Made by a program: the position numbers and the translations under genes
Source of the DNA: Chelativorans xinjiangensis
Lineage (GTDB): Bacteria; Pseudomonadota; Alphaproteobacteria; Rhizobiales; Rhizobiaceae
DNA length: 64,000 nucleotides
Assembly: GCF_009812055.1 (NCBI RefSeq)
Contig: NZ_WQNH01000016.1
Span: forward strand, 1 to 64,000
Direction of reading: 5' to 3'
Notes under the pieces: model-generated
Told to the model about the DNA's origin: nothing
The model's input: the letters and a program-made list of their open reading frames with translations, nothing else
Databases searched by the model: none
In this document: positions 18,065 to 64,000 of the stretch, piece by piece
Numbering within the stretch: position 1 is the first letter of the stretch
How the letters are laid out: the number at the start of each line of letters is the position of its first letter

Positions 18065-20395
<2,331 letters not shown>

Positions 20396-20505
20396 GTTGC
20401 GCATTAAATCCATAACGTGTTTTTAAACCATCCCGCGCAATAACCCACCAGACCGCAACCCTTAGGGGAAGCGGAGACACCTGAAGAGCGTTTTACGGTG
20501 GTGGG

Positions 20506-23528: not shown

Positions 23529-23533
23529 CAGCC

Positions 23534-23848: not shown

Positions 23849-24228
23849 CGCCCACCGACGAGGTCGAGACGAGGCCGGACGAGATCCTCGTCGAATGCGA
23901 GATGGAGGCTTCGCCCCAAACGCTCTGGCGCGCGCTGACGGAGGAGGAGCTTCTCGCCGATTGGCTCGGCGCCCGCCCGGCGGCGGAGGGCGAAGATGCC
24001 ATGGAAGGGCCGCGTTACCGCATCGTCGAAGCCGAGCCCTACGACCGGCTCCGCTATGCCTGGCACGACCCCTCCTGCCCCGACGCGCCGCCCTTCGTCA
24101 CGATCGAGCTTGAGCCGATCGCGGGCGGGCGGACGCGGTTCCGCCTCACTCACGGGCAGGTGGCGGCGCGCGCGCCGGCCATCCGCGCGGCGAACTCAAA
24201 CACTCCGCCGCTGGCGCTTGCCGCCTGA
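23845..24228 (+). CDS. SRPBCC-domain (AHSA1/START-like) protein
   Basis: A 127-residue protein with the AHSA1 pattern IxVECEMEASPQTLWRALTEEELLADWLGA, then RYRIVEAEPYDRLRYAWHDPSCP and TIELEPIAGGRTRFRLTHGQ. The fold is a hydrophobic ligand-binding cavity. ATGA overlap with the ArsR gene shows one mRNA and translational coupling; such ArsR-SRPBCC pairs are widespread in alphaproteobacteria, role unknown. The short tail after THGQV lacks the usual final helix, so the protein is slightly short for the family. Confidence 0.82.
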   Translation: MTPTDEVETRPDEILVECEMEASPQTLWRALTEEELLADWLGARPAAEGEDAMEGPRYRIVEAEPYDRLRYAWHDPSCPDAPPFVTIELEPIAGGRTRFRLTHGQVAARAPAIRAANSNTPPLALAA

Positions 24229-24267
24229 GCCGAACGCAATAGCTACTGAACAAGAGGAGGTTGCGCC

Positions 24268-24885
24268 ATGCGTGACATGATGAATCTCGTCCCCATGGTC
24301 GTTGAACAATCGGCGCGCGGCGAGCGCTCCTTCGACATCTTCTCGCGGCTCCTGCGCGAGCGCATCGTCTTCCTCAACGGCCAGGTGGACGACAATTCCG
24401 CGGCCTTGATCTGCGCCCAGATGCTGCATCTGGAGGCGGAGAACCCGAACAAGGAGATCTCCCTCTACATCAACTCGCCCGGCGGCGTGGTCTCCAGCGG
24501 CTTGGCCGTCTACGACACGATGCAGTTCATCAAATGCCCGGTCGCCACCCTGTGCCTCGGCACGGCGGCCTCCATGGGCTCGTTCCTCCTGATGGCAGGC
24601 GCCAAAGGGCGCCGCATGGCGCTTCCCAACGCGCGGATCATCCTGCACCAGCCCTCGGGCGGCTTTCAGGGCCAAGCCTCCGATATCGAGCGCCACGCCA
24701 GGGACATCCTGAAATTGAAGCGGCACATGATCAAGCTTTACGCCGAGCACAGCGGGCGCACGAAGGAGGAGGTGGAGCGCACGCTCGACCGCGACTTCTT
24801 CATGACCGCCGAAGAGGCGCGGGAATGGGGACTGGTGGACCACGTCTACCACCGGCGCGAGGCGCTGGAGGCGATCGATCGGTAG
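24268..24885 (+). CDS. clpP: ATP-dependent Clp protease proteolytic subunit (secondary copy)
   Basis: A 205-residue ClpP with an intact catalytic triad: Ser102 in [11 protein letters not shown], His127 in ILHQPSGG and Asp176 in DRDFFM, at exactly the E. coli spacing. A tetradecameric serine peptidase chamber fed by ClpX or ClpA. Here it stands alone, with no clpX or tig nearby, so it is probably one of the extra clpP paralogues common in Hyphomicrobiales. AGAGGAGG lies before the ATG at 24268. Confidence 0.92.
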
Positions 24886-24906
24886 CCGCTACGTTTACAG
24901 TTATCG

Positions 24907-25105
24907 CCGCGCCCTGTCGCGCCCCCCTCTGTCCTGAGCTTGTCGAAGGGGCCGGACATCTCCCCCGCGAGGGGGGAGATCATCTCTCATTGATATTTCG
25001 CCTCTTCTGCGACGTTGGAGGATTGGCGAAAGCGACGATAACAGCCAATCTCCCCCGTGTGGGGGAGATGTCCGGCAGGACAGAGGGGGGCGCGAAAGGG
25101 CGCCG
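24907..25105. repeat. MITE-like element, copy 1 (terminal inverted repeats)
   Basis: The ends are a long imperfect inverted repeat: CGCGCCCCCCTCTGTCC on the left and GGACAGAGGGGGGCGCG on the right, extended by GCGCCCT/AGGGCGC. Inner arms GGACATCTCCCCC and GGGGGAGATGTCC also pair. The left arm includes TGAGCTTGTCGAAGGGG. The same architecture recurs at 49,935-50,135 with a different middle. No coding capacity. Confidence 0.8.
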
Positions 25106-25136
25106 ACCATCTCGATTCCCATTTACAGCCGTAACG

Positions 25137-26813
25137 CTACGTCCGATCCCTGAACCTGTTGGTGATCGGATAGCGCCGGTCGCGGCCAAAATTCTTCTTC
25201 GTGATCTTCACGCCCGGTGCCGCCTGCCGGCGCTTGTATTCGGCGATGTAGAGCAGGTGCTCGACGCGGTGGACGGTTTCGCGGCTGTGGCCGCGCGCGA
25301 CGATGTCGTCGACGGCCATGTCGTTTTCCACCAAGCATTCGAGGATGTCGTCGAGGACGGGATAGGGCGGCAGGGAATCCTGGTCCGTCTGGTTCTCGCG
25401 CAATTCCGCCGAGGGCGCCTTGTCGATGATCGACGCCGGGATCACTTCGCCGGAAGGGCCCAGCGCACCCGGCGGCACATGCCCGTTGCGCCAGCGGCAG
25501 AGCGCGTAGACCTGCAGCTTGTAGAGGTCCTTGATGGGATTGAAGCCGCCGTTCATGTCGCCGTAGAGCGTGGCGTAGCCGACGGACATTTCCGACTTGT
25601 TGCCGGTGGTGACCACCATCGAGCCGAACTTGTTGGAAATCGCCATCAGGAGCGTTCCGCGGGCGCGGCTTTGCAGGTTCTCCTCCGTCACGCCCTCCTG
25701 CGTGCCCTCGAAGAGCTGGGTGAGCGCATGGTTGAAACCTTCGACGGGCTCGAAGATCGGCACGATGTCGTAGCGGCAGCCGAGTGCGCGGGCACAGTCC
25801 TCGGCGTCCTTCAGCGATTCTTTCGAGGTGTAGCGGTAGGGCATCATGACCGCCCTCACCCTCTCCTCGCCGAGCGCATCGACGGCAAGCGCCGCGCAAA
25901 GCGCTGAATCGACACCGCCGGAAAGGCCGAGGACGACGTTCTTGAAGCCGTTCTTGTTCACGTAGTCGCGCAGGCCCAGCATGCAGGCGCGATAGTCGGC
26001 CTCCTCCTTCTCGGGGATGAGGGACATGGGCCCTTCCGCGCAGACCCAACCGTCAGCCGTGCGCCGCCAGGTGGTGACGGCGACAGCCTCCTCGAACTGG
26101 CTCATCTGGAAAGCCAGCGACTTGTCGGCCTGGATGGCGAAGGAGGCGCCGTCGAAGACGAGCTCGTCCTGGCCGCCCAGCATGTTGGCGTAAAGAAGCG
26201 GCAGGCCGCTGTCGATGACCTGGACGATGGCCACCTGCTGACGCACCTCCACCTTGCCGCGATAATAGGGCGAGCCGTTGGGGACCAGCAGGATTTCGGC
26301 GCCCGATTCGGCCAGGCTCTCGCACACGTCGAGCTTGCCCCAGATGTCCTCGCAAATGGGGATACCGAGCCGCACGCCGCGGAAATTGACCGGGCCCGGC
26401 ATGCTGGGGCCGGGTTGGAAGACGCGCTTTTCGTCGAACTCGCCATAGTTCGGCAGGTCGAGCTTGTGGCGTTCGGCGATGAGCGTGCCGCCGTCGAGCA
26501 CCGTCACGGAATTGTGGACGCCGCTTTCGCGGGAGAGCGGCGTGCCCATGATGACGCCGGGACCGCCGTCGGCCGTGTCTGCGGCAAGTTCGGCAACCGC
26601 CTTTTCGCAGGCCTCCACGAAGGCCGGTTTCATCACCAGGTCCTCCGGCGGATAGCCGGCGATGAAGAGCTCGGTGAAGAGCACGAGGTCGGCGCCATGG
26701 CGGGCGGCGTCGGCGCGCGCCTCGCGCGCCTTGGCAAGGTTGCCGGCAACATCGCCCACGGTGGGGTTGAGCTGGGCGACGGCAATGCGGAGGATGTCGG
26801 GAGCAGCGTTCAT
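25137..26813 (-). CDS. nadE: Glutamine-hydrolysing NAD+ synthase
   Basis: A 558-residue two-domain enzyme. The N-terminal nitrilase-type glutaminase (about 1-270) carries its Glu/Lys/Cys triad in LFTELFIAGYPPEDL, RHKLDLPNYGEFDE and GIPICEDIW. The C-terminal synthetase (about 285-558) has the PP-loop LGLSGGVDSALCAAL and TGNKSEMSVGYATLYGDMNGG. It amidates nicotinate adenine dinucleotide to NAD+ using glutamine nitrogen. The ATG at 26813 follows AGAGGA at good spacing. Flanked on both sides by repeats. Confidence 0.95.
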   Translation of the reverse strand: MNAAPDILRIAVAQLNPTVGDVAGNLAKAREARADAARHGADLVLFTELFIAGYPPEDLVMKPAFVEACEKAVAELAADTADGGPGVIMGTPLSRESGVHNSVTVLDGGTLIAERHKLDLPNYGEFDEKRVFQPGPSMPGPVNFRGVRLGIPICEDIWGKLDVCESLAESGAEILLVPNGSPYYRGKVEVRQQVAIVQVIDSGLPLLYANMLGGQDELVFDGASFAIQADKSLAFQMSQFEEAVAVTTWRRTADGWVCAEGPMSLIPEKEEADYRACMLGLRDYVNKNGFKNVVLGLSGGVDSALCAALAVDALGEERVRAVMMPYRYTSKESLKDAEDCARALGCRYDIVPIFEPVEGFNHALTQLFEGTQEGVTEENLQSRARGTLLMAISNKFGSMVVTTGNKSEMSVGYATLYGDMNGGFNPIKDLYKLQVYALCRWRNGHVPPGALGPSGEVIPASIIDKAPSAELRENQTDQDSLPPYPVLDDILECLVENDMAVDDIVARGHSRETVHRVEHLLYIAEYKRRQAAPGVKITKKNFGRDRRYPITNRFRDRT

Positions 26814-26825
26814 GGGCAGTCCTCT

Positions 26826-26936
26826 AAGCAATTCCGGAAAAGTGGAAACCGGTTCTCCGTCCGGAATTGCGACAAAACAAAGAGTTAGACCAGTTCATCG
26901 ATTCCATGAAACGATGAACTGGTCTAGCGCATCGGC
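26826..26936. repeat. Rhizobial intergenic repeat, family A (forward copy)
   Basis: It begins AAGCAATTCCGGAAAAGTGG and ends in the CCAGTTCATCG/CGATGAACTGG hairpin, nearly identical to the copy at 17,031. It starts just upstream of the nadE start and abuts a second element. Confidence 0.85.
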
Positions 26937-27031
26937 CCGAAAACCGGAATCGATTTTCGGAAAGCACGATGCGTAGCTTTAATAACCTACAGCGTCCTTT
27001 TGTGCGTCCTAAAGGACGCACGGCGCTGTAG
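26937..27031. repeat. Intergenic repeat, family B (forward copy)
   Basis: It contains GCGCATCG...CCGAAAACC and GGTTTTCGG-like inverted parts, GGAAAGCACGATGCG, AATAACCTACAGCG and the palindrome GTGCGTCCTAAAGGACGCAC. A reverse-oriented relative lies at 47,302-47,392 inside the ABC importer operon, and a shorter relative lies near 41,119. Confidence 0.75.
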
Positions 27032-27067
27032 CCCGCGGCCCGACGGCTTGCAACAAGCGGTGGCGGG

Positions 27068-27655
27068 TCAGCCGATGAAGCCGCCCTCGCCGCGGTCCAG
27101 CATGAGCGGGATGATCAGATCTTCCTCGTCGTGAAGGTGGCGGGCAAGCATGTCGATCAGGCGGGTATTCTCGTCGGCATAGGCATCGGCCGCGAAAAGC
27201 TGACGGTCGGCATTCTCCTTTAGGGCCCGGAGGAGTTCTCGCCCCTTCTCGCCATTGCGCTCCAGCGCATCGTGGATGACATGATGATCGCTGTCGAGGA
27301 TGTCGAAGCCGCGCTGGAGCCGCCGCTCGGCCTTGGCGAAGGCGGGAAAATAATGCTGGTCCTCCACCTGATGGTGGCCGTGAAGCTGCTGCAGGAAGAA
27401 GCGCAGGCGCGGGGCGAACCATTGGGCGAAGGCGGCCGGCGGCAGATGGCCTTCGCGATAGTCGGCGACACTTTTCTGCAGCATGCCGCCCAGTTCGCGG
27501 AACATATCGTGCCGCTGCAGCCAGAACTGCGCCATCTCGCCAAGATTGGCGTGGCCCTGCCACGTCTCACGCGGGTATTTTTCCACCAGGAACCGCAGGT
27601 CCTCGGGCAGTTCCTTGCGGTTCTCGATGCGAAGGCCGTTCGGCAGGTCGGTCAT
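27068..27655 (-). CDS. Hemerythrin HHE-domain protein
   Basis: A 195-residue all-helical protein whose metal ligands fit a hemerythrin-like diiron site: HANLGEMAQFWLQRHD, LHGHHQVEDQHYFPAF, DSDHHVIHDAL and LARHLHDEEDLIIPLML. Such proteins bind O2, NO or iron and often protect against redox stress. It ends before the family B repeat and begins seven bases after the GFA-family stop on the same strand, so the two genes are probably co-transcribed. Confidence 0.87.
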   Translation of the reverse strand: MTDLPNGLRIENRKELPEDLRFLVEKYPRETWQGHANLGEMAQFWLQRHDMFRELGGMLQKSVADYREGHLPPAAFAQWFAPRLRFFLQQLHGHHQVEDQHYFPAFAKAERRLQRGFDILDSDHHVIHDALERNGEKGRELLRALKENADRQLFAADAYADENTRLIDMLARHLHDEEDLIIPLMLDRGEGGFIG

Positions 27656-27661
27656 ATATGG

Positions 27662-28099
27662 CTACTTCTGCGGTTTTTGCGGTTCGTCGGCCACCAGGAT
27701 CGAATCGCTCGAACGCGCGTATTGTGGCAGGCCGTCCGTTATCTCGTAGTAATCGCCCTTGTCGGCAACGAAAATATGCGCTTCCGCCTTCAGCCCGCTC
27801 GGCCGCTCGAAGCTGCCGGCCATGATCGACGTCACATCCGCCCCGTTGCGCTTCCAGAAGAGCACCGAGCCGCAGGTCTTGCAGAAGCCGCGCCTGGCGA
27901 AATCGGAGGCGGCGTACCAGGCGAGGTTGCCGGCGCCTGCTATCTCGAGGCGGGCATTGTCGACGTCGGTTGCGGCATAGATATGCCCGCTCTGCTTGCG
28001 GCACTGGGAGCAATGGCAATAGACGACACAGCGCAGGCTGCCGTGCGTGCGAAAACGGACGGCACCGCACAAGCACCCGCCTTCTCTTAACCGTGACAT
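27662..28099 (-). CDS. GFA family protein (glutathione-dependent formaldehyde-activating-like)
   Basis: A 145-residue zinc-binding protein of the CENP-V/GFA fold. Zinc ligands are GGCLCGAVRF, CHCSQCRKQSG and GFCKTCGSVLFWK. The prototype Gfa was proposed to assist S-hydroxymethylglutathione formation, but most members have unknown roles. Upstream of the hemerythrin gene with a seven-base gap. A minus-strand terminator between it and aroG isolates the pair from the upstream gene. Confidence 0.88.
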   Translation of the reverse strand: MSRLREGGCLCGAVRFRTHGSLRCVVYCHCSQCRKQSGHIYAATDVDNARLEIAGAGNLAWYAASDFARRGFCKTCGSVLFWKRNGADVTSIMAGSFERPSGLKAEAHIFVADKGDYYEITDGLPQYARSSDSILVADEPQKPQK

Positions 28100-28113
28100 G
28101 AACGTCCTCCAGC

Positions 28114-28143
28114 AAAAACCCCCGCCACTATGCCATGGCGAGG
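28114..28143 (-). terminator. Intrinsic terminator of aroG
   Basis: On the minus strand, CTCGCCA and TGGCGGGG form a stem around a GGCATAG-type loop followed by TTTTT. It lies about 65 bp after the DAHP-synthase stop and just before the GFA gene. Confidence 0.65.
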
Positions 28144-28207
28144 GTGTCGGCTGTATCGCAAAGCGTTGAACGCTGCGGTCAACGGAAGCGCGCCACGACG
28201 CGCCTTT

Positions 28208-29596
28208 TCAGACTGCCGCAACCTTCTTCGCCGGGTGCGCGGCCGCGTCCTTCTTCAGGAGCTCGGCCACCAGGAAAGCAAGCTCCAGCGCCTGGTCGGC
28301 GTTGAGGCGCGGGTCGCAATGGGTGTGGTAGCGGTCGGAAAGGTCGTCGGCCGAAATAGCGCGGGCACCGCCGGTGCACTCGGTGACGTTCTTGCCCGTC
28401 ATCTCGATATGGATGCCGCCGGGATGCGTGCCTTCGGCACGATGCACCGCAAAGAATCTCTCGACCTCCTGCAAGATGCGATCGAAGGGCCGCGTCTTGT
28501 AGCCGTTGAGCGAGATCGTGTTGCCGTGCATGGGATCGCACGACCAGACCACCTTGCGGCCTTCCTTCTCCACAGTGCGGATCAGCTTCGGCAGGTGAGC
28601 CTCCACCTTGTCGGCGCCGAAACGGGCGATCAGCGTCAGCCGGCCGGCCTCGTTCTCGGGGTTGAGCGCGTCGATGAGGCGGATAAGGCCGTCGGGCTCC
28701 AGCGATGGCCCGCATTTCAGGCCCAGCGGGTTCTTCACGCCGCGGCAGTATTCCACATGCGCGTGGTCGGGCTGGCGCGTGCGGTCGCCGATCCAGATCA
28801 TGTGCCCGGAGGTGGCATACCACTCGCCGGAGGTGGAATCGACACGCGTCAACGCCTCCTCATAGCCCAGAAGCAGCGCCTCGTGGCTGGTGTAGAAGTC
28901 GGTCTCGCGGAGCGAGGGATGGCTCTCGGCGTTGATGCCGATGGCGCGCATGAAATCCATCGTCTCGGAGATGCGGTCGGCCAATGCCCGATAGCGCTCG
29001 CCCTGCGGACTGTCGGCGATGAAGCCCACCATCCACTTGTGCACATTCTCCAGGTTGGCGAAGCCGCCCTGGGCGAAGGCGCGCAGGAGGTTCAGCGTCG
29101 CCGCCGACTGGCGGTAGGCCATGTCCTGGCGCGCCGGGTCGGGCGTGCGCGAGCCTTCCGTGAAGTCGATGCCGTTGATGATGTCGCCGCGGTAGGAAGG
29201 CAGCGACACGTCGCCCTTCACCTCGATGTCGGAGGAGCGCGGCTTGGCGAACTGGCCGGCGATGCGGCCGACCTTCACCACCGGCTGGGCGCCGCCGAAG
29301 GTCAGCACCACCGCCATCTGCAGGAAGACGCGGAAGAAGTCGCGGATATTGTCGGCGCCGTGCTCGGCGAAGCTTTCGGCGCAATCGCCGCCCTGGAGGA
29401 GAAAGCCTTCGCCGTTGGCGACGGTGGCGAGCTGCCTTTTCAGCTTGCGCGCCTCACCTGCAAAAACCAGCGGCGGATAGGTCGCAATCCGCGCCTCGAC
29501 CTCGGCCAGCGCGGCCTGGTCCGGATAGGCCGGAACCTGCTCGATCGGCTTGCTTCTCCACGAATTCGGCGACCATTTCGTCATGTCAACACCCAT
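28208..29596 (-). CDS. Class II 3-deoxy-7-phosphoheptulonate (DAHP) synthase
   Basis: A 462-residue plant-type (class II) enzyme catalysing the first step of the shikimate pathway from PEP and erythrose 4-phosphate. Signatures include [12 protein letters not shown] (metal Cys), [41 protein letters not shown] and the C-terminal [18 protein letters not shown]. Class II enzymes are the usual DAHP synthase in rhizobia. The ATG at 29596 is preceded by GGAAGG; a second ATG four codons later is possible. Transcribed alone, with a terminator after it and a large inverted-repeat element before it. Confidence 0.95.
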
Positions 29597-29738
29597 AGGC
29601 TCTACCTTCCCGCCGGCGTCTGCCGGCCGGAAAGCGGCTATTTAGCGGAAGCTTTGCCCGGATACTACCCCGCATTTGGGCGCGAAGCGATGTAAAAGGC
29701 GGGATAGGGGCGACTTTCGCGCTGGGCAGATGGCAGCG

Positions 29739-29902
29739 CCAAGCGCCCTCGTGGTTCGACAAGCTCACCATGAGGGCTGCTGAGACGTCGCTGCCTGTGT
29801 TCAGGGCAGTATCCGTTGTCGCTATTCGGCTCTTCAACGTCGAAAAGGCGCAGCGCCCCAGTAGCCCTCATGGTGAGCTTGTCGAACCACGAGGGCGCTT
29901 GG
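29739..29902. repeat. Element with perfect 40-bp terminal inverted repeats
   Basis: The segments 29,739-29,778 and 29,863-29,902 are exact reverse complements over 40 bp (ends CCAAGCGCCC / GGGCGCTTGG) and enclose about 84 bp. Each arm includes a GTGAGCTTGTCGAACCACGA-type core, the same CTTGTCGAA motif seen at 24,930, 49,960 and 50,943. No coding capacity; it could fold into a long cruciform or RNA hairpin. Confidence 0.9.
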
Positions 29903-29910
29903 CACCGTTT

Positions 29911-31290
29911 CTACTCCACCCGCTCCCCGTTCCGCACCCGATAGCTCGGCTGATACATCGTCACCAGCTCTTCCGCCGCCGTCGGGTGGATCGCCATGGT
30001 CTGGTCGAACGCGTCCTTGGTCAGCTTCGCCTTGACGGCGATGCCGAGAATCTGCGCCATCTCGCCGGCGTCCGGCCCAAGGACATGGGCACCGATGACG
30101 CGGCGCGAGGCGGCGTCGACGATGAGTTTCATGATCATCTTTTCCTGCCGCCCGGAGAGCGTGTGGCGCATGGGGCGGAAGCTGGCGCGGTAGATTTCCA
30201 GCGCATCGTAGCGCTTGGCCGCGGCCGCCTCGCTCAGGCCGACGGTGCCGATCTCGGGCTGCGAGAAGACAGCGGTGGCGATGTCCTCGTGGTCGACCTT
30301 CGTCGGATTATCCTTGAAGACGGTCTCGATGAAGCACATGGCCTCGTGGATGGCGACCGGGGTGAGTTGCACGCGGTCGGTCACGTCGCCGATCGCCCAG
30401 ATGTTGTCGATATTGGTGCGCGAATAGTCGTCGACCAGTATCTCGCCCTTCACCCCCGTCTTAACGCCGGCGGCATCGAGGCCCAGGCCTTCGGTATTGG
30501 GAATGCGGCCGATGGCCAGCATCACCATGTCGAAGGTCATCTTGCCGCCCGACTTCAAATGCGTGTCGAGCCGGCCGTCGGCACGCTTTTCGACCGCCTC
30601 GAAGATATCCTGGCACAGTATGCGGATACCCTTGGCCTCCATGGCCTCGTGCAAGCCGCGGCGGACGTCGCTGTCGAAACGGCCGAGGATCTCCTTGCCG
30701 CGGTAGATAAGCGTCGTCTCGACGCCGAGCCCATGAAAGATATTGGCGAATTCCACCGCGATATAGCCACCGCCTTCAATGGCGATGGAGCGCGGCAGCG
30801 CTTCGAGGTGGAATGCTTCGTTGGAGAAGATGCAGTGCTCGTGGCCGGGCAGCGCCTCGTGCGGGTTCGGGCGGCCGCCGGTGGCGATGAGTATCTTCTG
30901 CGCGGTCAGCGTCTCGCCTCCGACGCGCACCGTGTGCCGGTCGAGGAGGATAGCCCTTTCATCGAAAATGCGCGCACCGGCATTTTCCAACCCCTTGCGA
31001 TAGAGCCCCTCGAGCCGGACGATCTCGCGGTCCTTGTTGGCGACGAGCGTCGGCCAGTCGAAGCGGGCCTCGCCCAGCGTCCAGCCGTAGCCGGCCGCAT
31101 CCTCGAAATGCTCCGGAAACTGCGAGGCATAGACGAACAGCTTCTTCGGCACGCAGCCGCGGATGACGCATGTGCCGCCGAAGCGGTACTCCTCCGCAAT
31201 GGCGACGCGCTTGCCCATGGCCGCGGCGAGGCGCCCTGCCCTGACACCGCCCGAGCCGCCGCCGATGACAAAAAGATCGAAGTCCGCCAT
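29911..31290 (-). CDS. gor: Glutathione-disulfide reductase
   Basis: A 459-residue FAD/NADPH disulfide reductase. FAD loop GGGSGGVRAG, the redox-active disulfide GGTCVIRGCVPKK, NADPH-domain GGGYIAVEFANIF and the C-terminal catalytic HPTAAEELVTM are all present. It keeps glutathione reduced in the cytoplasm. The Arg residues that select NADPH are expected near LIYRGKEILGRFD. It appears monocistronic, with a hairpin terminator between its start and the next gene upstream. Confidence 0.94.
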   Translation of the reverse strand: MADFDLFVIGGGSGGVRAGRLAAAMGKRVAIAEEYRFGGTCVIRGCVPKKLFVYASQFPEHFEDAAGYGWTLGEARFDWPTLVANKDREIVRLEGLYRKGLENAGARIFDERAILLDRHTVRVGGETLTAQKILIATGGRPNPHEALPGHEHCIFSNEAFHLEALPRSIAIEGGGYIAVEFANIFHGLGVETTLIYRGKEILGRFDSDVRRGLHEAMEAKGIRILCQDIFEAVEKRADGRLDTHLKSGGKMTFDMVMLAIGRIPNTEGLGLDAAGVKTGVKGEILVDDYSRTNIDNIWAIGDVTDRVQLTPVAIHEAMCFIETVFKDNPTKVDHEDIATAVFSQPEIGTVGLSEAAAAKRYDALEIYRASFRPMRHTLSGRQEKMIMKLIVDAASRRVIGAHVLGPDAGEMAQILGIAVKAKLTKDAFDQTMAIHPTAAEELVTMYQPSYRVRNGERVE

Positions 31291-31356
31291 GCTGCCCTTA
31301 CCCCATGTGCTCGTGCTTTCGTGTCATCTTCAGCTATGCCGCGTGCGTCGAAAATG

Positions 31357-31382
31357 AAAGCCCGGCGTGAAAGCCGGGCTTT
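31357..31382. terminator. Hairpin terminator between gor and the DUF2059 gene
   Basis: AAAGCCCGGC and GCCGGGCTTT form a perfect 10-bp stem around a GTGAAA loop. The A/T flanks make it serve as a terminator for the minus-strand DUF2059 gene just upstream. Confidence 0.7.
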
Positions 31383-31413
31383 GAATTCCGTTCAATAATC
31401 CGTTTTCAGGCGT

Positions 31414-31953
31414 TTACTGGCCGTTATCGGCGTCATTCTCGGCGGGCGCCTGGGCATTGGTGGCAGCCTGGAGTTGTTCGGTTACGCTGTTGGACAGGTC
31501 GCGCTCGATGCCGCGGCGCCAGACGGTGGCGGCCCTGAGCACCTCGCGGGTGACGATCGGGCCTTCGGCCAGAAGCTTCTTTCCCGTGGGCGAGGTGTAG
31601 AACTCGGTGATGTTGTTGAGGTCCTCCTCGCTGAACACGCGCGCATAGGCCTGCGCCGCCTCGTTTTCCAGGTCGGCGCGGCGGCTCGCCAGTTCGAGCG
31701 CCTTTTCGTCGACGGTGGCATTGATGAGATCCACCATGTTCGGGCTCTGCTGGATGAGTTCGGCCTTCAGCGTCTGCGCGGCCAGCGGCAGATAATTGTC
31801 GAAATCGTCGGTGGCGGCGATTGCGTCGATTGCGGTGCGCGCGGCCTTCAGATGCGATTCCGAAATCTCCTGGGCGGCGGCCGGTAGCGAAAACGCCGCA
31901 AGGGTCATCGCGGCGGTGAGCGCAAAAAGGCGGGCGCGTTTAGCCAATGTCAT
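31414..31953 (-). CDS. Exported DUF2059 domain protein
   Basis: A 179-residue periplasmic protein with a clear signal peptide (RARLFALTAAMTLAAFSLPAAAQ, cleavage after AAA-Q region) and a helical C-terminal domain with EEDLNNITEFYTSPTGKKLLAEGPIV, the DUF2059 hallmark (FYxSPxGK). Function unknown. The ATG at 31953 follows AGGA and starts the signal peptide. It lies about 28 bp after rpiA on the same strand and is probably co-transcribed with it. Confidence 0.85.
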   Translation of the reverse strand: MTLAKRARLFALTAAMTLAAFSLPAAAQEISESHLKAARTAIDAIAATDDFDNYLPLAAQTLKAELIQQSPNMVDLINATVDEKALELASRRADLENEAAQAYARVFSEEDLNNITEFYTSPTGKKLLAEGPIVTREVLRAATVWRRGIERDLSNSVTEQLQAATNAQAPAENDADNGQ

Positions 31954-31981
31954 TTTCGATCCTACTCCGTTTTTTGGTCCG

Positions 31982-32686
31982 TCAGCTTTGCGCATCGATC
32001 GTCCTCACGCCGTCTTCCCCGGCAAGTATCGCCAGGCTGGCAAGGCCGATGAACAAGCCGTGCTCCACGACACCGGGTATCGCGTTCAACTCGTCGGCAA
32101 ATGCTCTTGTCGCGGGAATACGGCCAAATGATGCATCGACGATAACATGGCCGCCGTCGGTGAGGAAAGGCTGGCCCTCAGTCATTCGTACGGCGATTTC
32201 GCCCGTCAGGCCGAAGCGCCGGCCGGCCGCCTCGATGGCAAGTATCGTGGCGCGCAGGCCGAAGGTATTGACCTCGATGGGCAAGGGAAAGCGGCCGAGG
32301 GTTTCGACAAGCTTGCTTTCGTCGGCGATGACGATCATGCGGCGCGATGCGGCGGCTACGATCTTCTCGCGCAACAGTGCGCCGCCGCCGCCCTTGACGA
32401 GGGCGAGGCCGGGGCCGATCTCGTCGGCGCCGTCCACCGTGAGGTCGAGCTCGGGCGTCTCGTCGAGTGTGGTGAGCGGCACCGAGAGCTCCCGGCACAG
32501 CGCCTCCGTGCGCTCGGACGTCGGCACGCCGACGATATCGAGCCCGTCGGCCACCCCTGCGGCGAGCAGCCGCACGAACTCCTCAGCGGTCGAACCCGTG
32601 CCGATGCCGAGCTTCATGCCGCTCTTGACGTACCCAAGTGCCGCGCGTGCGGCCTCGACTTTCAGTGCTTTGGCGTCCGCTGCCAT
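31982..32686 (-). CDS. rpiA: Ribose-5-phosphate isomerase A
   Basis: A 234-residue enzyme interconverting ribose 5-phosphate and ribulose 5-phosphate in the pentose phosphate pathway. Family motifs [20 protein letters not shown] (catalytic Asp residues), [16 protein letters not shown] and [10 protein letters not shown] are all intact. Full length. Divergent from gph and likely followed by the DUF2059 gene. Confidence 0.96.
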
Positions 32687-32816
32687 CTTGTCCCCAACAG
32701 TTTGGGATGCTTCCTAACTTTTTTCGCCACGTCCGGCAAATACCTTCGTACCGTGCCAGCTTCCTTGCAGACCGCGTCGTGCCGCGGTATCCGCCATTGG
32801 CACGAAGGGGATATCA

Positions 32817-33512
32817 ATGACCAAGCCTATCGTCGTATTCGACCTGGATGGAACGCTTGTCGACACCGCGCCGGACCTGCTCGACAGCCTCAATCACTGC
32901 TTGCGCAGCGTCGACATGCCGTCGGTCGACGGGGCGCAGATCCGCCGTTTCATCGGCGCCGGCAGCCGCGCCATGATCGAGCGCGCCTTCGCCGCCGATG
33001 GAAGGCGGCTTGCGAACGGCCAACTCGACGCGCTGCAGGCCCTCTTCATCGAGCACTACACGGCCGGAATGCCCGGCCGCTCTCGGCCTTTCCCCGGCGC
33101 GCTCGATGCCGTGGCGCGATTCCGGCAGGCGGGCTTCCTCGTCGCCGTCTGCACCAACAAGCACGAACGCTTGTCGCGGCATCTGCTGGAGGCCCTTAAG
33201 ATCGCCGGACTGTTCGAAGCGATCTGCGGCGGCGACAGCTTCGCCCACAGAAAGCCCGACCCGCGCCACCTCACCGATACGATCGCGCGTGCCGGCGGCG
33301 ACCCGGAAAGCGCCGTCATGATCGGCGATTCGCGCACCGATATAGACACGGCCAAGGCGGCCGGCATCCCCGTGGTGGCCGTCGATTTCGGCTACACGGA
33401 CCAGCCGGTGCATGTGTTCGAGCCAAGCCGCGTCATCTCGCACTTCGATGCTTTGACGGTGGAGCTTGCCGAAAGGCTCATCGCCGCCGCCGCTGGTCAG
33501 CCGGCGTCTTGA
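32817..33512 (+). CDS. gph: Phosphoglycolate phosphatase, HAD family
   Basis: A 231-residue HAD hydrolase with motif I FDLDGTLVD, motif II VCTNKH, motif III lysine in HRKPDP and motif IV MIGDSRTDIDTAK. The length and the opening VVFDLDGTLVDTAPDLLDSLN are those of Gph, which removes 2-phosphoglycolate formed by DNA repair or oxygenation. Divergent from rpiA; tRNA-Val follows. Confidence 0.88.
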   Translation: MTKPIVVFDLDGTLVDTAPDLLDSLNHCLRSVDMPSVDGAQIRRFIGAGSRAMIERAFAADGRRLANGQLDALQALFIEHYTAGMPGRSRPFPGALDAVARFRQAGFLVAVCTNKHERLSRHLLEALKIAGLFEAICGGDSFAHRKPDPRHLTDTIARAGGDPESAVMIGDSRTDIDTAKAAGIPVVAVDFGYTDQPVHVFEPSRVISHFDALTVELAERLIAAAAGQPAS

Positions 33513-33567
33513 CTTCACTGCCGGGCACCCCTTATATCGCCGCGCGCTCGGCATTGACCGGTCGGGC

Positions 33568-33642
33568 GGGCGCGTAGCTCAGCGGGAGAGCACACCCTTC
33601 ACACGGGTGGGGTCGTAGGTTCAATCCCTACCGCGCCCACCA
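33568..33642 (+). tRNA. tRNA-Val (anticodon CAC)
   Basis: Acceptor arms GGGCGCG (33568-33574) and CGCGCCC (33632-33638) pair. The anticodon stem CACCC/GGGTG holds loop TTCACAC with anticodon CAC, and the T-arm reads GTAGGTTCAATCCCTAC. The CCA is encoded. Length 75 nt. Confidence 0.97.
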
Positions 33643-33741
33643 TCCCGACAGAAAGGAGCGCAGCGGACTAGCCTCTGTTTCACGAGTCCAAGCTGCTGTT
33701 TCACGAGCTGATGTCGATGCTATCCTGAGAGCGATCCCAAC

Positions 33742-35196
33742 GTGCACGCTTCCATCGTCAGGGCGGCCGCCTTCGTGGCTTCCATTTTTGCGCTCTACAT
33801 CGCGGCGGCGATGCTCGTGCCGGCGGCGGTCGATCTTTATTACGGTCACAGCGACTGGCAGGTCTTCGCCATCTGCGCCTTCACGACCGCCGCCGTTGCG
33901 CTGACGGTTGCTGCCGCCACGCGCGACCGTACGCCCATCCGCTCGACGCGCCTTGCGTTCTTCGTCGTCGTCGTCCTGTGGGTGACGCTCGGCGTCATCG
34001 GCGCCTTTCCGCTCTATACGGCCTCACTGAAGCTCGATTTCGCCGGCGCCGTGTTCGAATCCGTCTCCGCCATCACCACCACCGGCTCCACCGTCATTGC
34101 GGGCCTCGACGACCTGCCGCCCGGCATCCTCCTGTGGCGGTCGCTTCTGCAGTGGATCGGCGGCCTCGGCGTCATTGCGCTCGGCCTCTTCTTCCTGCCG
34201 CTTCTGAATGTCGGCGGCTTTTCCTATTTCCGCATCGAATCCTCGGATATCGAGGATCGGCCCTTCGAGCGCCTGTCCAGTTTCCTCCAGGCTCTCGTCG
34301 GCATCTACGTGGTGCTCACGGCGTTGTGCGCGATCTCCTACGCCGCGGTCGGGATGACGACCTTCGATGCGGTCAACCATGCCATGACGACGCTCGCCAC
34401 CGGTGGCTTCTCCACCCATGACGCGTCCTTCGGCTATTTCGAGAGCGATGCGGTGTTGTGGGTCAGCACGGTCTTCATGCTTCTCGGCGCCCTGCCCTTC
34501 TCGATCCTCATCCTCTTGGTCGTACGCGGCCGGCTGGACGCGATGCGAGACCCGCAGATCCGGCTTTTCCTTGCCTATGTGGTCGGCATCGTCCTGGCGC
34601 TTGCCATCCATAGGCGCATCGTGAGCGATACGACATTCGGTGAAGCGTTGACGAGTTCGGCCTTCAACCTTGTCTCGGTCATCACCACGACGGGCTTTGC
34701 CAGCGAAGACTACTCGTTGTGGAGCCCTTTCGCCGTCACGGTGTTCTTCTTCGCCACATTTCTCGGCGGCTGTTCCGGCTCGACGGCCGGCGGCGTGAAG
34801 TCCTACCGCCTCCTCATCCTCGCGCGCATGCTGCAGAACGGCTTGCGCACGTTGGTCTATGGACGCTCGGTGCAGCCGCTGCGCTACGGCAACCGCACCG
34901 TGGACGAGGATATGCAGCGCTCGATAACGCTTTTCGTCGTCGGCTTCATCCTCGTGTGGGTGAGCGGGACGCTGGCGCTCGCGGCAGGCAACCTCGATAT
35001 GGTCACCTCGATGACAGCCACCTTGACCGCGATCACGAATGTCGGCCCCGGCCTCGGGCCGGTCGTCGGTCCGGCCGGCAATTTCGCTTCGCTCAGCGAC
35101 TACGCGAAGTGGATACTGTCCGCTTCCATGCTGCTCGGGCGGCTGGAAATCTTGGCCGTCCTGGTGATTCTGACGCCGACCTTCTGGCGCAACTAG
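33742..35196 (+). CDS. trkH: TrkH-family potassium uptake protein
   Basis: A 484-residue polytopic K+ translocating subunit of the SKT superfamily, with the selectivity-filter-like loops SAITTTGSTVI, TTLATGGFSTH, SVITTTGFASEDY and TAITNVGPGLGP. The GGCSGSTAGGVKSYR loop is typical of TrkH. It normally works with the cytosolic NAD-binding ring TrkA, which is not adjacent. The start is GTG at 33742 with a weak Shine-Dalgarno, so the start is less certain than the rest. Confidence 0.9.
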   Translation: MHASIVRAAAFVASIFALYIAAAMLVPAAVDLYYGHSDWQVFAICAFTTAAVALTVAAATRDRTPIRSTRLAFFVVVVLWVTLGVIGAFPLYTASLKLDFAGAVFESVSAITTTGSTVIAGLDDLPPGILLWRSLLQWIGGLGVIALGLFFLPLLNVGGFSYFRIESSDIEDRPFERLSSFLQALVGIYVVLTALCAISYAAVGMTTFDAVNHAMTTLATGGFSTHDASFGYFESDAVLWVSTVFMLLGALPFSILILLVVRGRLDAMRDPQIRLFLAYVVGIVLALAIHRRIVSDTTFGEALTSSAFNLVSVITTTGFASEDYSLWSPFAVTVFFFATFLGGCSGSTAGGVKSYRLLILARMLQNGLRTLVYGRSVQPLRYGNRTVDEDMQRSITLFVVGFILVWVSGTLALAAGNLDMVTSMTATLTAITNVGPGLGPVVGPAGNFASLSDYAKWILSASMLLGRLEILAVLVILTPTFWRN

Positions 35197-59977: not shown

Positions 59978-61063
59978 ATGGCAACTACTGTTCGAACTAA
60001 GGAAGGCAATTGGCGAGTGCAAGTCCGGCGTAAGGGCAAGTACGCTTCGCAGACCTTCCGACTTAAGACGCTCGCGAACGAGTGGGCAGTTGAAACCGAG
60101 CGGCTAATCGATCTCGGCGGCGAGCCCAGCAGCCATCGAATTCGGGATCTCAGGACAGTTGTCGATTTGCATATCGCCGACCTACACGAGGTCGGGCGCC
60201 CATTACGGCGGTCGAAGCAAGCGGTCATGGAAGCATTGAAACGCGACCTCGGCGCAACACGCATCGCTCGGCTCGATAGAGCAACGATTATCAAGTACGG
60301 GCAGCGCCGCGCGAAACAAGGCGCTGGCCCTGTGACCCTTTCGGTTGACCTCTCGTACTTGAGAACGGTGCTAACCCACGCCGCTGCCATTCATGGAATC
60401 TCGGTCGACACAGAAAGCATCCGTCTTGCGCGAGCCGCACTCACCCGGCTGGGTCTTGTTGGCCGCTCGCACGAACGGGATCGCCGGCCTACCGAAGACG
60501 AAATCGAGGCCCTGCTCGATTATTTCGACAAAAACTCCAACACCATCATCCCGATGAGCCGGATTGTCCGCTTCGCGATTGCGACCGCAATGCGCCAGGA
60601 AGAAATCTGTAAGATCGAATGGAGCGATGTCGATCTGAATAAGCGAGTTGTGCTGATCCGAGACCGCAAGGATCCGCGCCGCAAGGATGGAAATCACCAG
60701 AAGGTGCCTCTGCTTAACCTCACTGGCTTCGATGCGTGGCACCTCTTGCTTGAGCAAAAGGTGCTAACAGGCGGAAAAGGCCGCTGTTTCCCTTATCACC
60801 ACCAGTCAGTTGGCACCGCCTTCCGGCGCGCTCGACAAAAACTGGAAATCGATGACCTCCGCTTTCACGATCTGCGCCACGAAGCCACGAGCAGGCTGTT
60901 TGAAGCGGGATTGTCGATAGAGCGTGTTGCGCTCGTCACTGGCCATCGTGATTGGAAGATGCTGCGACGTTATACGAACCTCAAGCCAGAAGATCTGCAC
61001 AAGCATCAGACAAAGGATCAGGCGACCGAGGAGGCATTCTTGCGCTCGCTTGCTGACGGCTAG
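59978..61063 (+). CDS. Tyrosine recombinase (dusA-type integrase)
   Basis: A 361-residue site-specific integrase. An N-terminal arm-binding segment (MATTVRTKEGNWRVQVRRKGKYASQTF) is followed by a SAM-like core-binding domain and the catalytic domain with Arg206 (TAMRQEE), His297 and Arg300 (HDLRHEA), His323 (GHRDW) and nucleophile Tyr332 (RRYTNL). The opening and size fit integrases of prophages and islands at dusA. The ATG at 59978 is preferred; 59966 is possible. It directs integration and, with a partner, excision of the island that extends rightward beyond the window. Confidence 0.92.
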   Translation: MATTVRTKEGNWRVQVRRKGKYASQTFRLKTLANEWAVETERLIDLGGEPSSHRIRDLRTVVDLHIADLHEVGRPLRRSKQAVMEALKRDLGATRIARLDRATIIKYGQRRAKQGAGPVTLSVDLSYLRTVLTHAAAIHGISVDTESIRLARAALTRLGLVGRSHERDRRPTEDEIEALLDYFDKNSNTIIPMSRIVRFAIATAMRQEEICKIEWSDVDLNKRVVLIRDRKDPRRKDGNHQKVPLLNLTGFDAWHLLLEQKVLTGGKGRCFPYHHQSVGTAFRRARQKLEIDDLRFHDLRHEATSRLFEAGLSIERVALVTGHRDWKMLRRYTNLKPEDLHKHQTKDQATEEAFLRSLADG

Positions 61064-61193
61064 CCATTTTGGTGGCCTCGCGTCAGCTTTGCGCCCCCAT
61101 TTCGGTCATTCCGCCGGGCCGTGCTGTCCTCCAGAAACGGACATCACTGGTGTCAACACCACGCAGGTGCCGACAGTCTGCTAGACAGAACAC

Positions 61194-61228
61194 TTGACGA
61201 ACAGGAAACACAACGTTATTGTTGTGTC
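61194..61228 (+). promoter_or_regulatory. Sigma-70 promoter with palindromic operator for the island operon
   Basis: TTGACG (61194-61199), a 17-bp spacer and TATTGT (61217-61222) form a good sigma-70 promoter. The perfect dyad ACACAAC-N6-GTTGTGT (61208-61227) covers the -10 and ends one base before the ATG at 61229. Transcription would begin about at the start codon, so the mRNA is probably leaderless. The XRE-domain product of the operon is the obvious candidate repressor. Confidence 0.75.
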
Positions 61229-61666
61229 ATGCTTCCTGATGCCGACCCATCGACTGGCTACCTGCCTCCCGGGGTGCATGACGCTCCTTGGAGCGAGGTG
61301 GCCCCGCGGTTCAGTTGCAACGGTCACCGCACCCGTCTCGTCGGAGGCCTACTCGCGGCTCTACAAAATCTCGCGGGAGCAGGCTGTCGGTCGGTCCTGC
61401 TCGACGGAAGCTTCGTTTCACAAAAGGAACTGCCGGAGGACTATGACGGAGCTTGGAACACACAAGGAGTCGATCCCTATCGTCTCGACCCGGTACTGCT
61501 TGATTTCACCAATGGTCGAGCAGCCATGAAATCCAAATATCTAGGCGAGATCTTTCCGGCCTCGTTCCTCGCCGCCCCTGGTGTGCTCTACCGCGACTTC
61601 TTTATGAAGGATCGTAACGGGGTGCCCAAAGGCGTCATCAACATCGACCTCGGGAGCCTGCCATGA
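61229..61666 (+). CDS. DUF6932-like minimal nucleotidyltransferase
   Basis: A 145-residue protein. Residues 56-75 (SVLLDGSFVSQKELPEDYDG) fit the nucleotidyltransferase signature: G60-S61, nine intervening residues, then D71-x-D73. The opening LPPGVHDAPWSEVAPRF and the later LDPVLLDFTNGRAAMKSKYLGEIFP are what I recall of the DUF6932 family. Proteins of this fold often serve as MNT-type modifiers of a partner protein or RNA. It starts at a leaderless promoter, and its TGA overlaps the next ATG (ATGA). Confidence 0.72.
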   Translation: MLPDADPSTGYLPPGVHDAPWSEVAPRFSCNGHRTRLVGGLLAALQNLAGAGCRSVLLDGSFVSQKELPEDYDGAWNTQGVDPYRLDPVLLDFTNGRAAMKSKYLGEIFPASFLAAPGVLYRDFFMKDRNGVPKGVINIDLGSLP

Positions 61667-63111
61667 TTACCAACGAACGGCAGTACAAGATTACCCGGAG
61701 CGAGGCCGACCGGTTTCGCAAGGCGATCAGCCAGCTGACCGAAGGGCCGTCGCGCGGGGACGTGCATCCGCGCCTGCTTCAGGCCGAACGCGAGGCCATA
61801 GAAAGCCAGCTTTCCGACCTGCAGGCTGAACTTGCCGAATATGACCGCCTAAAGTCCGCCGACTTGTCGATCATCTCGATCAGCTCGTTCGACGAACTGG
61901 CCGACGGGCTCATCCAAGCAAGGATTGCTAGCGGGCTCAGCCAAAAAGCTCTCGCCGACCGACTCGGCCTCAAGGAGCAGCAAATCCAGCGCTACGAGGC
62001 CGAGCGCTACGCATCTGCCAGCTATCAGCGCCTGCAGGAGGTCGCCAACGCGCTCGGCGTGCGCATCAAGAACGACATTCTCCTGCCGGTGGCACCCAAC
62101 AGTTTCGGCGGGCTCGTTAGCAAACTGCGGCAGGTCGGGCTTGACCGCGAATTTCTATTGTCGCGGCTCTTGCCGTCGACTGACGCCGCGCGCGCCAGCG
62201 GTGAGGTCGCCAGCGAGGACGACGACTATGCCTTGACCGCCAGAGCGGGCGCGGTCCTCGAACGCGTCTTCGGCTGGACGCGCGACAATGTCTTCGGCGC
62301 GCAGGCGCTGGTCGCGCCACGCTTCGCTGCGGCCGAAGCACGGTTCAAGATGCCCGCGAATCGCGCGCAGACAACGACTAGCCTTTATGCCGCCTACGCG
62401 AACTATCTCGCCGTCGTCGCGCTCAAAGCGGCGCGATCGCTGCCCAAGGTTGAAATCCCAACGGACCCGGCGCTCATGCATCGCCGTATTCAGGAGAGCT
62501 ACGAGACCGTCGATCTCAAGAGCGCACTTCATACTGCTTGGGATCTCGGTGTCATCGTCCTGCCGCTTCGCGACCGCGGTGCCTTCCATGGTGCCTGCTG
62601 GCGTTACGAGGGCCGCAACGCCGTGGTGTTGAAACAAGCGTCGAAGCACGAGGCCCGTTGGCTATTCGATCTGCTGCACGAGCTATTTCATGCCGGCCAA
62701 CGTCCCGAGGCTGACACGCTGGAGGTTATCGAGGCGGATGAAACCTCAGTCGAACGGCGCAACTCGAATGAGGAGATCGCCGCCAGCCAATTTGCTGGGG
62801 AAGTCGTGCTCAACGGCAAGGCCGAGATCTTGGCGCAGGCCTGCGTCCAGGCTGCCCATAAATCGGTGGAGCGGCTGAAGAGCGTCGTTCCGACCATTGC
62901 TGCGAAGAACGGGGTGAGCGTTGGCGCGCTAGCGAACTACCTCGCCTTCCGTCTCTCTTGGCAGGGTGTGAATTGGTGGGGCACGGCAGCCAACCTGCAA
63001 GCAGACGATAGCGATCCCTGGACGATCGCGCGCGACGTCTTCGTCGAACGCTTCCCTTACGACATCGATAACGAACTCGATCGGCAGTTGCTCGATCGGG
63101 CGCTCCATTGA
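61663..63111 (+). CDS. XRE-HTH / ImmA-IrrE-type zinc metallopeptidase
   Basis: A 482-residue multidomain protein. Residues 1-65 form a helical, coiled-coil-rich start (ITNERQYKITRSEADRFRKA...AELAEYDRLK) typical of HigA-like antitoxins. Residues 78-135 are an XRE helix-turn-helix (GLIQARIASGLSQKALADRLGLKEQQIQRYEAERY). A central region of about 180 residues is unassigned. The C-terminal domain has zinc motif H339-E-L-F-H343 with a likely third ligand at Glu370/371. ImmA/IrrE peptidases cleave repressors on stress. Start and stop overlap or abut neighbours; it could both repress the operon and act as trigger. Confidence 0.85.
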   Translation: MITNERQYKITRSEADRFRKAISQLTEGPSRGDVHPRLLQAEREAIESQLSDLQAELAEYDRLKSADLSIISISSFDELADGLIQARIASGLSQKALADRLGLKEQQIQRYEAERYASASYQRLQEVANALGVRIKNDILLPVAPNSFGGLVSKLRQVGLDREFLLSRLLPSTDAARASGEVASEDDDYALTARAGAVLERVFGWTRDNVFGAQALVAPRFAAAEARFKMPANRAQTTTSLYAAYANYLAVVALKAARSLPKVEIPTDPALMHRRIQESYETVDLKSALHTAWDLGVIVLPLRDRGAFHGACWRYEGRNAVVLKQASKHEARWLFDLLHELFHAGQRPEADTLEVIEADETSVERRNSNEEIAASQFAGEVVLNGKAEILAQACVQAAHKSVERLKSVVPTIAAKNGVSVGALANYLAFRLSWQGVNWWGTAANLQADDSDPWTIARDVFVERFPYDIDNELDRQLLDRALH

Positions 63112-63119
63112 GGTCTTCC

Positions 63120-63728
63120 ATGTCTGAATTCCAGAAACCCCCACCGCTCGACATCAAATGCACATCGACCGACTGCGACAACGACCTACACTGCTTCAAG
63201 CAGCTGAAGAAAATGACGCGTGACCAGCGCGGCAAATGCCGAGCGTGCGGGGCAGATTTGGTCGACTGGAGGCGCCTGCACCGCCGCGACAAGGGCGATG
63301 CGGCGCACACTTTCGAAGCGCTTCAGCACGAGCTGATACGCCACCATTTTTTCCACCGCCCCGTCGACGAGGGTGCAATGCGCCACGCCCAGCGCAAAGG
63401 GCGCATCGCGCTGAAGGACGCGGCCCGCGACCGCCTCCGAAAGTATCTCGCGGTCGCCGAGCCGCCCCGCGACGGTCGCCAGACGCCCCTCGAAGGCAAC
63501 GCGATCTTTTACGCGCAACACGCAACCGCGACATGCTGCCGGACTTGCCTTGAATATTGGCATGACATACCGAAGGGCCGCCCGCTGACGGCAGAGGAAT
63601 ACGACTACTGCGCGACCCTTGTCGACCTTTTCCTCGACGAGAAGCTGCCCGAACTGTCTGATGAGCCGATCAAGGTGCCGCGCCGCGCCGGCCGCCTACC
63701 GCGCGAGCCGGAGGGACCGCATCCATGA
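63120..63728 (+). CDS. Cysteine-rich zinc-ribbon protein of unknown function
   Basis: A 202-residue protein. A first Cys group (C14, C19, C25, C40, C43: CTSTDC, LHCF, CRAC) suggests one zinc ribbon. A His-rich helix (HTFEALQHELIRHHFFHR) and a second group (TATCCRTCLEYWH, C139, C140, C143) could hold another metal. GNAIFYAQHATATCC is a striking conserved-looking stretch. I recall similar proteins beside radical-SAM genes but know no function. An upstream TTG in frame overlaps the previous stop; the ATG at 63120 is preferred. Its stop overlaps the next ATG. Confidence 0.75.
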   Translation: MSEFQKPPPLDIKCTSTDCDNDLHCFKQLKKMTRDQRGKCRACGADLVDWRRLHRRDKGDAAHTFEALQHELIRHHFFHRPVDEGAMRHAQRKGRIALKDAARDRLRKYLAVAEPPRDGRQTPLEGNAIFYAQHATATCCRTCLEYWHDIPKGRPLTAEEYDYCATLVDLFLDEKLPELSDEPIKVPRRAGRLPREPEGPHP

Positions 63729-64000
63729 CGAGCCCGGCTAAGCCTATCGATACTGTTCGTTTCGCCGCGCGGCTGCGCGGGCGGGCGATCGATGTCGAAG
63801 GTGGCCGCGTCTTGATCTCTCGCCTCGCTGGCTCGGGCCAAGAGGTCGACCTCACGCTTCCGGCCAACTGCAACGGATACGGGCGCGTTCGCCATTTCCG
63901 GGTGGCGACAGCCGAGGGCTGGCCAACCAATTCACTCCCGATCGAGCCGGCCTGCCGCGCGTTGGGCATCACGCCGGTTCCCGACATGATGACCGCGCTG
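63725..64000 (+). CDS. Fourth gene of the island operon, 5' part (possible radical SAM protein)
   Basis: The ATG at 63725 overlaps the preceding TGA (ATGA). The 92 visible residues (MTSPAKPIDTVRFAARLRG...) contain NCNGYGRVRHFRVATAEGWPTNSLPIEPACRALGI. From memory, this N-terminal region precedes a QNAACNWRCWYC-type 4Fe-4S motif in a radical-SAM family, which would lie just past the window end. No cluster motif is visible here, so the family call is an inference. The gene is incomplete at the right edge. Confidence 0.6.
   Translation, partial: MTSPAKPIDTVRFAARLRGRAIDVEGGRVLISRLAGSGQEVDLTLPANCNGYGRVRHFRVATAEGWPTNSLPIEPACRALGITPVPDMMTAL

Follow-up and report, generated by a model that had tools for sequence, protein, structure and literature searches.

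Prokaryotic viperins (pVip) come with an associated nucleotide kinase and have a defence function, and cyclic-oligonucleotide-based antiphage signalling systems (CBASS) with a CapV phospholipase exist. Operons of the (PIN)-GNAT-EVE type with ASCH and AAA_17 genes are described in parts of PMC7641849. Here, we analysed a stretch of 64,000 bases (the window) from Chelativorans xinjiangensis, which forms the start of the 85,819-base contig NZ_WQNH01000016.1 in a genome of 5.69 Mb, and identified a cassette of seven genes that begins near the end of the window and continues past it. In order, the genes encode a DUF6932 nucleotidyltransferase-like protein (gene 1), a fusion of an XRE helix-turn-helix (HTH) domain with an ImmA/IrrE-type peptidase (gene 2), a DUF4186 protein (gene 3), a radical SAM protein (gene 4), a BpsA-like transferase (gene 5), an ASCH-like protein (gene 6) and a P-loop protein resembling nucleoside monophosphate (NMP) kinases (gene 7). 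Comparison with related loci gives good support to a fixed gene set, a tight operon and co-inheritance. Our leading interpretation, held tentatively and at a little less than an even chance, is that the cassette may be a mobile, self-regulated defence system that makes an unusual nucleotide or base modification.

To place the cassette, we compared it with the closest described systems. It resembles pVip in having a radical SAM gene and a nearby NMP-kinase-like gene in a defence setting, whereas its radical SAM protein matches pVip only around the CxxxCxxC motif (E 0.0097, residues 97-168) and five further genes are present. The window protein gave no match to the NCBIfam viperin model at E 1, and 11 of 18 gene 4 relatives matched that model weakly (best 9e-5); viperin membership was rejected, since the window protein showed no viperin match beyond the iron-sulphur motif. 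Like the (PIN)-GNAT-EVE operons as partly described in PMC7641849, the cassette joins an ASCH-like protein, an AAA_17-type P-loop protein and an XRE domain in a mobile conflict setting, but it has a radical SAM protein, a BpsA-like transferase and DUF4186 instead. The seven proteins gave no match to GNAT, EVE or PIN (GNAT and EVE at E 1), and membership was ruled out because no GNAT-EVE fusion protein was found among them. The likeness to CBASS with CapV lies in a nucleotidyltransferase-like gene and in the phospholipase of a second form of the cassette (subtype B, loci L023 and L024), which matches effector models of PADLOC (2023 version); however, gene 1 belongs to DUF6932, and the common form (subtype A) has no phospholipase among its seven genes. 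Gene 1 was rejected as a CBASS component, since the PADLOC scan at E 1 returned PDC-M63A alone and no CD-NTase. That match to the PADLOC candidate PDC-M63 is weak (1.5e-7), gene 2 matches no PDC-M63 model and genes 3-7 of this copy match no PDC model. Gene 5 differs from the branched-chain polyamine synthase BpsA in sequence (13-14% identity) and in its mobile operon. As the original prediction had supposed, no catalogue entry for this composition emerged from the library scans or from the literature, most subscription papers and all bioRxiv preprints lying outside the search. Since its composition matches no system found, we judge the cassette to be new in kind and infer its function.

To determine whether the genes form a unit, we scanned 84,980 species genomes and 72,556 plasmids with the radical SAM query, which returned 19 loci and 7 records, respectively; five of the plasmid records were fetched. 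The comparison comprised 25 loci (the window locus, 18 genome loci, five plasmids and genome G056), and L026, a near-duplicate of L017, was left out of it and counted in the motif and operator tallies. The complete set of seven genes, with order and strand unchanged, was present at 18 of the 25 radical SAM loci, in Alphaproteobacteria, Burkholderiales and cyanobacterial plasmids, and related but incomplete forms occurred in Bacteroidota. With starts chosen by script, 91 of the 108 junctions in the full loci measured -4 to +20 bases, and pairwise distances among the seven proteins were correlated (r 0.86-0.97). The remaining loci lacked ASCH (L022-L024), lacked a detectable DUF6932 (L020, E 1e-4, where the gene 2 relative aligns only from residue 91), retained genes 2-4 (L019), were cut by a contig end (L021) or had the radical SAM gene with the other six genes not found in the DNA examined (L025). 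Because the radical SAM gene served to find every locus, its presence at all of them follows from the design of the search. An ASCH query of the 72,556 plasmids recovered exactly the same 7 records, and a gene 5 query recovered these and four remote ones (26-29% identity), which lie in other settings (L045 without annotation) and were not counted as cassettes. At three of them (L042:7908-12803, L043:7992-10345 and L044:5592-10369) the gene 5 relative precedes a metallophosphoesterase gene, fused to a PUA-like domain in L042; a gene annotated as adenylosuccinate synthetase lies nearby in L042 and L044, and the L042 copy has an N-terminal P-loop kinase-like domain. As an operon, the cassette recurs in Alphaproteobacteria, Burkholderiales and Cyanobacteria, and we came across no function ascribed to the seven protein families together.

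Individual families were spread more widely among plasmids. Gene 2 relatives occurred in 35 records and DUF4186 in 48, with at least 80% of the length of gene 2 or gene 3 covered only in the 7 cassette plasmids, and DUF6932 occurred in 28. DUF6932 together with an XRE/ImmA or ImmA gene also precedes a beta family protein in A. tumefaciens (Agrobacterium; L046:5956-8772) and adjoins TnsD/TnsE Tn7-like genes on a plasmid of Acinetobacter (L047:4956-6676). The proposed co-occurrence of the first four families proved correct as a fixed cassette, and the DUF6932 and XRE or ImmA genes also travel before other cargo. These two plasmid settings, and the weak PDC-M63A match of gene 1, would suit an addiction or toxin-antitoxin unit in which the DUF6932 and XRE/ImmA pair would stabilise the island, with genes 3-7 as passengers. 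We consider this improbable, because the seven genes co-evolve and keep their order, and because L019 and L020 keep an ImmA-type gene 2 relative and genes 3-4 with no detectable DUF6932 (E 1e-4). At two Rhizobium loci, a DUF763 gene follows the cassette as an eighth gene (L014:8906-10168; L027:12333-13595); the L027 protein matches PF05559 at 2e-121 and the L014 copy is 94% identical.

The region before gene 1 bears on regulation by the cassette itself. A promoter, TTGACG-17-TATTGT (61194..61222, plus strand), was the sole promoter-like site in 61000-61300 (shuffles, mean 0.1), and a 20-base palindrome, ACACAAC-N6-GTTGTGT (61208..61227), covers its second hexamer and ends one base before the gene 1 ATG, so that the single operator-covered promoter of the original prediction is borne out. 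This operator was the sole match in the window at up to 2 mismatches, with none in shuffles, and within 1 mismatch no other site exists in this genome. It recurred before gene 1 at 19 of 22 loci (up to 2 mismatches), lying 1-2 bases from the start codon in 17 of these 19 and 12 and 34 bases away in L016 and L018. Both arms are changed symmetrically in L009, and three cyanobacterial plasmids carry two copies 30 bases apart. L019 and L020 have neither gene 1 nor operator, and no further sites were found in the 410,080 bases of the 23 loci scanned. Collectively, these patterns strongly support a dedicated operator at the cassette promoter, and autoregulation by binding of the gene 2 XRE domain to the palindrome would be the simplest reading. 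The single base between palindrome and ATG suggests a leaderless message. As the operator is conserved, the regulation of the cassette is testable at once. The operator pattern followed by ATG also occurred on three viral contigs (L049-L051), which we attribute to chance, as no gene 1 relative was found there at E 1e-8.

All seven genes lie on the plus strand; genes 5-7 are beyond the window and are numbered by continuing the count past 64,000 on the same contig. Gene 1 (61229..61666, 145 aa) is a DUF6932 member (PF22014, 1e-27, 97.7 bits against a curated cut-off of 27), and its predicted nucleotidyltransferase signature was found as GSF...DYD, with GSF...D.D kept in 22 of 22 sequences. Gene 2 (61663..63111, 482 aa) starts within the end of gene 1 (ATGA) and matches HTH_3 (7e-11) and Peptidase_M78 (1e-6). 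Its HTH is fused to a HELFH motif as foreseen, and HExxH is present in all 24 gene 2 sequences, the window copy included; the M78 match, HExxH and fused HTH together identify an ImmA/IrrE (M78) protein with XRE domain, which is presumed to be the repressor and sensor of the operon. Gene 3 (63120..63728, 202 aa) follows after 8 bases. The hidden Markov model search of this presumed zinc-ribbon protein returned DUF4186 (PF13811, 7e-33, 113.3 bits over residues 63-172, cut-off 25), and the predicted, zinc-ribbon-like cysteine clusters are present in the N-terminal region outside that match. Its structure model (predicted local distance difference test score 83) had no PDB match at E 0.001, the best being at E 0.14 with probability 0.09, a result that by itself does not establish a novel fold. 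According to a part of PMC9283627, E. coli carries an orphan DUF4186 protein, yneG. Gene 4 (63725..64756 on the contig, 343 aa, the first 92 residues in the window) overlaps the end of gene 3 (ATGA). The CxxxCxxC motif anticipated past 64,000 is there as CAWRCWYC, and the score against Pfam Radical_SAM (PF04055) is barely above the cut-off (29.7 against 29.5 bits). CxxxCxxC occurs in 26 of 26 gene 4 sequences, and motif and Pfam match together place the protein in the radical SAM superfamily; its profile gave no trustworthy match in the PDB by sequence.

Gene 5 (64753-66087, 444 aa) shares an N-terminal domain and a Rossmann fold with BpsA aminopropyltransferases and contains DPPW, as do 23 of 23 gene 5 sequences; the window-genome copy had no Pfam match, and the profile had no trustworthy PDB match by sequence. 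Gene 6 (66096-66533, or possibly starting from an upstream TTG at 66030) has relatives annotated as ASCH, and the ASCH motif GxKxxExR was found in 19 of 20 sequences. The sequence that lacks it, L011 from Roseiarcus, was matched as two pieces in different frames (L011:11402-11789) and may be broken or carry a sequencing error. The ASCH profile had no PDB match below E 0.01 except a designed repeat protein, which was taken as spurious. Gene 7 (66530-66919) encodes a P-loop, NMP-kinase-like protein whose C-terminal part is missing: it has 129 aa, against 178-203 for its counterparts within the operons of relatives, and the missing part was not found within the next 1.1 kb, so that the cassette copy of this genome may be impaired. 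The kinase motif was present in 21 of 23 gene 7 sequences tested; for the two misses (L017 and L026) the tested copy was a second, reverse-strand kinase. This second gene 7-related kinase is encoded in the reverse orientation roughly 1.7 kb downstream from the L017 cassette (L017:13991-14569), and likewise in L026. Genes of the window-genome copy are joined by 4-base overlaps or 8-base gaps. The original prediction of a compact one-directional operon was right about the ATGA overlaps and about the four genes described; the gene 2-gene 3 gap is 8 bases instead of nine, and the unit has seven genes, three of them past the window end.

Next, we assessed distribution. With a threshold of E 1e-20, matches to the radical SAM profile were confined to 2 of 398 phylum genomes and 1 of 297 family genomes (own genome included), and in the phylum of the L025 genome the radical SAM gene was found in 1 of 254, namely that genome itself; with 5-8 candidates scored per genome in these three scans, weak relatives could be missed. 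The radical SAM protein at E 0.001 matched 4 of 385 class genomes: the matches in the own genome and G056 were strong, and two others (L006 and L007) were weak and dropped as unrelated. Four same-genus genomes in the family scan had no radical SAM relative. Relatives 80-88% identical to the window radical SAM protein were found in Bradyrhizobium, Roseiarcus, Sphingobium and a metagenome-assembled genome (MAG) of Methylocystaceae; Sphingobium and Bradyrhizobium belong to different orders. Six of the seven cassette plasmids were typed conjugative. The cassette of Tolypothrix PCC 7712 (record positions 15,983-21,923) falls inside an 18,401-base insertion (15,435-33,835) absent from PCC 7601, by the coordinates in the relevant part of PMC9679502, which lists some insertion genes and there names no system. 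The patchy spread is well supported and in line with movement of the cassette between distant bacteria as a unit. A radical SAM relative was absent from 50,697 phage records and none was confirmed in IMG/VR (queried with the alignment or with the L025 protein; metagenome contigs not scanned), and a phage-borne origin was rejected as no phage or viral relative was found.

An alternative to defence is a nucleic-acid modification or stress module, in which tRNA, rRNA or host DNA would be modified and read by ASCH, conferring stress tolerance or an advantage in plasmid competition instead of immunity. The conjugative typing of the plasmids favours it, as do the proximity of the gene 5 fold to rRNA and tRNA methyltransferases and, in the part of PMC7641849 that treats it, the standing of ASCH as a PUA-superfamily domain tied to RNA and modified bases. 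We regard this account as rather unlikely, because a conflict system is a better fit to the sparse distribution, the phospholipase found where ASCH is missing, the defence neighbours and the dedicated XRE/ImmA protein.

The phospholipase and the neighbours bear directly on a defence role. Subtype B comprises L022 and L023 from Methylobacterium and L024 from Aureimonas. No ASCH gene was found at these loci, where a gene for a patatin-like protein begins 22-23 bases after the kinase gene. The L023 and L024 proteins are full-length (589-595 residues) and match PADLOC phospholipase effector models (4e-14 and 5e-16), and in the PDB the L023 protein matches PlpD (1e-17) and CapV (4e-6). In L022 (11747-12400), a patatin-like open reading frame (ORF) starts alike by eye and ends after 217 residues. 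The radical SAM proteins of L022-L024 form a separate supported clade. The presence of a phospholipase in ASCH-less loci suggests a shared product read by different end-proteins. We also scanned nine of 115 flank ORFs (two being the phospholipases) and one L027 plasmid protein with PADLOC. Strong matches were IetS at L008, NsnB at L014, LmuB at L012, AbiEii at L017 and L018, PDC-S71 (C-terminal part) at L015 and a type IIG restriction-modification protein at L027; L018:2666-3994 gave weaker capP and RmrA matches only. Together, neighbours and phospholipase subtype support a defence role, which we consider likely. The regulated defence or stress module originally proposed is thus consistent with the dedicated operator, the defence neighbours and the phospholipase subtype, with defence itself standing as a prediction.

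On the defence interpretation, the XRE part of gene 2 would sit on the palindrome and keep the operon off until infection or DNA damage activates the ImmA-type peptidase part, removing the repressor. Gene 1, as an MNT-type nucleotidyltransferase, might add a nucleotide to gene 2 or to an effector and so tune its activity. The core (radical SAM protein, BpsA-like aminopropyl- or methyl-transferase, NMP-kinase-like protein and DUF4186) would make an unusual nucleotide or base modification, a chemistry that is a reasoned guess from the protein families. In the common subtype the ASCH protein would read or remove the modification, and in subtype B the patatin-like phospholipase would act as a killer; phospholipases of this kind are switched on by nucleotide signals elsewhere. 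Invader replication would be blocked or the infected cell would die. A more specific proposal, which we rate as doubtful, is a new nucleotide-based immunity in which the radical SAM protein, the aminopropyl-type transferase and the NMP kinase build a novel hypermodified nucleotide that marks nucleic acid for the ASCH reader or, in subtype B, activates the killer phospholipase, with release through proteolysis of the XRE/ImmA repressor. Should the predicted chemistry hold, radical SAM and aminopropyl-transfer chemistry would be added to bacterial immunity.

Several observations weigh against this interpretation. The full set is not always present, as L019 has genes 2-4 only, nor is the XRE part, as the L019 gene 2 relative aligns only from residue 141. 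The operator is missing from the three subtype B loci (L022-L024) and from the Bacteroidota loci. The gene 1 profile found nothing significant in the PDB, and its putative nucleotidyltransferase activity is read from the motif. Gene 4 matches NrdG2, viperin, ArsS, QueE and MoaA weakly, with no clear subtype, and gene 6 scores under the PF04266 cut-off (E 0.031, 15.4 against 21.2 bits). Gene 7 is truncated here, aligning only to residues 1-101 of a 180-residue relative. The defence neighbours were hand-picked with no control set, a nucleotide context of the radical SAM gene was seen at one remote locus (L025) only, and both phenotype and chemistry are predicted from sequence.

That remote locus is an operon of a cyanobacterial MAG (L025:402-5261) with a guanylate-kinase/methyltransferase fusion, the radical SAM gene, a CMP-hydroxymethylase-like gene, a further protein and a Ham1-type gene, and it may encode a pathway for modifying bases or nucleosides. 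The best PDB match of the neighbour protein was CMP 5-hydroxymethylase (1e-41). This neighbour, and the fact that a radical SAM enzyme, a transferase and a kinase are typical of biosynthetic clusters, would fit an operon for a secreted, nucleoside-like small molecule. Such a product appears very improbable: the seven proteins matched no transporter family, neither ASCH nor the patatin variant fits, and L025 is without the other six cassette genes in the DNA examined.

Upstream of the cassette and outside it, a tyrosine integrase gene (59978..61063, plus strand; Pfam Phage_integrase PF00589, 6e-26) represents the mobility gene of the island. It adjoins dusA (tRNA-dihydrouridine synthase, E 9e-77), which confirms the dusA integrase of the original prediction. 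A second direct-repeat copy marking the island ends was not convincingly found on the contig, which ends at 85819, and a 12-base match was set aside as chance-like. The integrase had no relative at the other cassette loci examined (E 1e-8), which suggests that the cassette is carried by different elements. Near the contig end, a 788 aa ORF (82833-85199) has a C-terminal end that looks integrase-like by eye.

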